From: Candidatus Binatota bacterium
GTDB lineage: Bacteria > Desulfobacterota > Binatia > Bin18
Direction of reading: 5' to 3'
Assembly (NCBI GenBank): GCA_011523265.1
Contig: WTHD01000071.1
Span: 1 to 34,202, forward strand
Length of the DNA stretch: 34,202 nt
Shown one piece after another: positions 24,629 through 24,818 of the stretch (position 1 is the stretch's first letter; every line of letters starts with the position of its first letter). The notes beneath the pieces are model-generated. The model had not been told where the DNA came from, did not search any database, and saw only the letters and a list, made by a program, of their open reading frames with translations. Made by a program: the position numbers and the translations under genes.

Positions 24629-24818
24629 GTGGCCCAGAGATGTGAAATTTGTGGAAAAGGCCCCGCGGTGGGCTAATGTGAGTCACGCAAATAACAAGAC
24701 GAAGCGTCGCTGATTACCGAACCTGTAACGAGTGCGGGCAAGAGTCGCCGGTTCGGTGAAACGCCTACGCGTCTGTACGCGCTGTATCCGTTCTGGAAAA
24801 ATTGTGAAGGCGGCGTAA
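24629..24818 (+). pseudogene. rpmB: rpmB (50S ribosomal protein L28), decayed copy
   Basis: From GTG 24629, 6 bases after a perfect AGGAGG (24617-24622), the frame reads MAQRCEICGKGPAVG and then runs into TAA. Shifting frame after base 24674 gives [12 protein letters not shown], stop, LPNL, stop, [12 protein letters not shown] and [17 protein letters not shown], ending at TAA 24816. Together these spell a full L28 of the zinc-binding type, with both CxxC pairs. Lesions are a 2-base loss (or equivalent) near 24674, a TGA at 24711-24713 where L28 commonly has Trp, and a TAA at 24726-24728 where Gln is common. An intact L28 must be encoded elsewhere. An ATG at 24623 abuts the AGGAGG and is a less likely original start. 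Confidence 0.88.

Follow-up and report, generated by a model that had tools for sequence, protein, structure and literature searches.

The DNA analysed here (34,202 nucleotides of a contig from a Candidatus Binatota bacterium, referred to as the window) carries at 24629-24818, on the forward strand, a zinc-type rpmB gene for ribosomal protein L28 with three lesions, delimited from GTG to TAA by alignment with congeners and by translation. An intact rfaE2 gene lies upstream (24079..24558, forward strand; 89-92% protein identity to the congeners) and marks the locus as conserved; an intact, convergent relA/spoT-type gene lies downstream (25071..27224, reverse strand; 92-95% protein identity), and both keep the same order in the congeners. 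A single intact zinc-type rpmB is present at the same locus in five congeners (G001, G002, G003, G004 and G006), whose neighbourhoods are 86-93% identical to that of the window. The order rfaE2, rpmB, relA is common to the window and to the intact congeners, which places the broken gene at the orthologous position. The gap between rpmB and relA (24819-25070) is about 150 bases longer than that of the nearest congeners. The additional DNA includes GTAGGGTGCGCCC...GATGCACCCTAC and resembles a small repeat element; a repeat search within 24819-25070 gave no pair above threshold.

Membership of the L28 family was assessed with the PF00830 profile. With the stops read through, the 3' part of rpmB alone scored 50.3 bits, above the curated cut-off of 27. 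The gene reads as VAQRCEICGKGPAVG, a frameshift and then 45 residues, and both CxxC pairs (CEIC and CTRC) are still encoded, in different frames. An intact AGGAGG ribosome-binding site, read directly and fully or almost fully conserved among the congeners, is located at 24617..24622 (forward strand), six bases before the GTG at 24629-24631, as the first-pass annotation had described. This GTG, and not an ATG further upstream, is the likely start codon as judged from the alignment, since ACG replaces the upstream ATG in two congeners.

The three lesions were defined against the five intact congeners and all fall within 55 bases. Lesion 1 (24673..24676, forward strand) is a deletion of AA between 24673 and 24674. 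The two bases are present in G001, G002, G004 and G006, and G003 has the same two-base excess. The single frameshift claimed earlier is thus present, and is refined here to a deletion that creates an in-frame TAA (24674-24676) at once, so that the product stops after the 15 residues of VAQRCEICGKGPAVG. Lesion 2 (24711..24713, forward strand) converts a TGG tryptophan codon to TGA (G24713A), and lesion 3 (24726..24728, forward strand) converts a CAA glutamine codon to TAA (C24726T). The unmutated base is found at both sites in 5/5 congeners; the first-pass annotation had noted that each stop can arise by a single transition. With a 2-base deletion, a TGA and a TAA, the gene lacks an intact reading frame and is a pseudogene of the L28 family. 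One further change in rpmB is unique to the window relative to the five congeners, the silent C24643T; no missense change was found. The silent change and both nonsense changes fall in the C:G>T:A class, which is the commonest in the lineage (268 of the 518 window-unique changes). Of these three substitutions, two are nonsense and none is missense, an outcome that neutral decay gives rarely (about 0.003, calculated after the fact).

The remainder of the window was compared with the same congeners. The 46 other genes showed no internal stop and no frameshift, and the window-unique changes elsewhere comprised 346 silent and 147 replacement changes. One stop counted in rplD is not internal, and the rplD translation has no internal stop. 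Under uniform and independent error, three lesions would fall in rpmB with a probability of about 2e-7. Moreover, among 148 genomes of the class the L28 of the window is the only one with internal stops. Together with the 46 clean genes, this means that a general error rate fails as an explanation; the clean genes also rule out an altered genetic code.

The comparison of sister genomes that the first-pass annotation had proposed showed, beside the intact gene in the five congeners, a deletion of rpmB in another congener, G005. There, the first 44 bases of the gene remain, joined to the region that follows its stop codon. This lesion differs from those of the window, and the loss was independent. 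Elsewhere in its genome G005 carries a zinc-free L28 and L33 pair, located upstream of a gene for a CobW-type GTPase. Both flanks of the zinc-free insert are syntenic with the congeners, which rules out its zinc-free L28 as mere binning contamination. The L28/L33 unit (557-558 bp) is 95% identical at the DNA level between G005 (L126:5269-5825) and G007 (L149:3320-3876), a member of another genus, and is absent from the 146 other genomes of the class. The other genes of the two genera are far more diverged, with rfaE2 at only 53% protein identity, and the comparison indicates a recent transfer of the unit. A CobW-like gene and a gene for a FUR-family regulator are found near the G007 pair. On contig C121 of G007 (L175), the tRNA gene that follows the zinc-type L33 in the genus of the window is present, but the search found no L33 of the zinc type preceding it; G007 may have lost its zinc-type L33 as well.

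More distant relatives were also informative. G108, from another family, has an old relic of zinc-type rpmB beside relA (L198:3590-3740), in which CDIRG replaces CxxCG, with an internal deletion and a stretch of 15 residues still present; its zinc-free L28 is encoded on a different contig. Both types of L28 are present in G045 and G117, and the zinc-free form is the only type found in G007, G025 and G114. One class thus contains genomes in four states: with the zinc type alone, with it beside the zinc-free type, with it in decay, or without it. The window matches the third. The earlier reading of the gene as a zinc-type L28 that was broken recently is supported, in a group whose genomes without the zinc type carry a zinc-free paralogue.

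The first-pass annotation had held that another copy of L28 must exist. As stated, this was unsupported: searches of the assembly from which the window comes, with the PF00830 and TIGR00009 profiles (the latter at E values up to 10), found no second L28, and the two profiles, followed down to E = 10, gave nothing further but noise (contig C177, 13 bits). The zinc-free cassette of G005 was not found as DNA in this genome, in which the corresponding site holds a different insert. Completeness of the assembly is 94.9% and contamination 6.2%. Two of its contigs, C166 (L170) and C277 (L169), share 273 bases at their ends with 90.5% identity, so that the bin is probably a mixture of DNA from two congeners. 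No L28 match was obtained for 5 of the 95 good genomes of the class, which may reflect gaps, and an unassembled copy is therefore plausible here too. The zinc-type L33 of the same assembly is still open (contig C88, L146:84-230). It has two replacements, N22S and R40H, that are absent from the three congeners compared; these are possibly a weak hint of relaxed selection, a hint that cannot be pressed because the bin appears mixed.

Several explanations of these observations were weighed. A local assembly or sequencing artefact, in which the true gene has an undamaged frame and low coverage or a mixture of strains has corrupted about 55 bases of the consensus, would be consistent with the clustering of the lesions, with the apparent mixture of two congeners indicated by the contig overlap, and with the lack of an intact L28 elsewhere in the assembly. 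We regard it as unlikely, however, given the 46 undamaged genes in the rest of the window, the probability calculated above for uniform error, the separate losses of rpmB that G005 and G108 have undergone, and the fact that none of the other 147 genomes of the class, many of them fragmented, yielded an L28 broken in this way. If the lesions are real, the gene could in principle still be expressed by recoding, with a frameshift and read-through of the stops, and the unchanged residues outside the lesions would agree with this. Three separate events would have to occur within 55 bases, though, while the other genes of the window all read normally under table 11 and the congeners need no recoding; we consider this explanation scarcely credible.

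Two further explanations concern the rest of the genome. The organism may have lost L28 altogether, its ribosome working without the protein. This would explain why an assembly of 94.9% completeness yields no L28 but the broken one, and the five good genomes without a match, unless they merely have gaps, point the same way. It would require a genome of nearly 5 Mb to discard a core protein of the 50S subunit with no substitute; both other relic-bearing genomes hold a zinc-free L28, and to our knowledge L28 is near-universal in bacteria. Such a loss seems improbable. An intact zinc-type rpmB might alternatively reside at another site in the cell, or in the majority of the population, with the window copy as a duplicate or a minority allele. 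The incomplete and apparently mixed bin leaves room for such a copy, but the congeners have one L28 each, at exactly this locus, and the broken copy sits at the ancestral position with its neighbours, and we give this explanation little weight.

On balance we favour a recently dead ancestral zinc-type rpmB, on which selection lapsed after the gain of a zinc-free L28. The damage is confined to this one gene in an otherwise clean window and matches the mutation spectrum of the lineage. The same gene was lost by a different lesion in G005, which has the zinc-free pair, and G108 combines an old relic with a zinc-free L28. G045 and G117, with both types, and the near-identity of the pair in G005 and in the otherwise divergent G007 argue for the same explanation. 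Against it stand the lack of a second L28 and of a G005-type cassette in the assembly, the open zinc-type L33, and the excess of nonsense over missense changes. The suggestion that a zinc-free L28 replaced the zinc type gains strong indirect support from the relatives (the relics in G005 and G108, and G007, G025 and G114); in the genome of the window, whose assembly contains no substitute, we infer its presence. The locus is thus most likely a recent rpmB pseudogene whose zinc-free substitute is unassembled, and the window probably shows an exchange of zinc-type for zinc-free L28 in progress. In the proposed sequence of events, the single-copy zinc-binding L28 gene between rfaE2 and relA would be ancestral to the genus. 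The cell would have gained a zinc-free L28, perhaps together with a zinc-free L33. With that protein occupying the place of L28 on the 50S subunit, the zinc-type gene would no longer have been under selection, and ordinary mutation would have caused its decay. The frame was destroyed by the 2-base deletion together with the two nonsense changes of the C:G>T:A class, with a 15-residue product left.

That ribosomal proteins of the zinc type have been exchanged for zinc-free ones is usually deduced from the types present in each genome. In this class, successive states of the exchange lie side by side and a near-identical pair is present in two genera, so that the proposed order, with the gain preceding the loss, becomes testable. 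The locus also cautions against assuming that single-copy markers such as rpmB are always stable.

Zur-repressed zinc-free paralogues of L28, L33 and other ribosomal proteins are well described (PMC6103462, PMC5912738), and their horizontal transfer had already been suggested by Makarova and others (2001; cited in PMC5912738). The replacement of zinc-type by zinc-free L28 is thus already known; the relics, together with the cassette shared in near-identical form, illustrate it well. The window resembles the zinc-type L28 (rpmB, PF00830, 'C+' form) in its family match, both CxxC pairs, ribosome-binding site and location beside relA, and differs in that three lesions destroy the frame and only 15 residues can be made. 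G005 and G007 have in common with the Zur-regulated rpmB2-rpmG2 systems (PMC6103462, PMC5912738) a pair of zinc-free L28 and L33 genes, which is followed in G005 by a CobW-type gene and accompanied in G007 by CobW-like and FUR-family genes. The described Zur systems, however, keep the zinc-type gene as the main copy, whereas G005 has lost it and in the window and G108 it is in decay.
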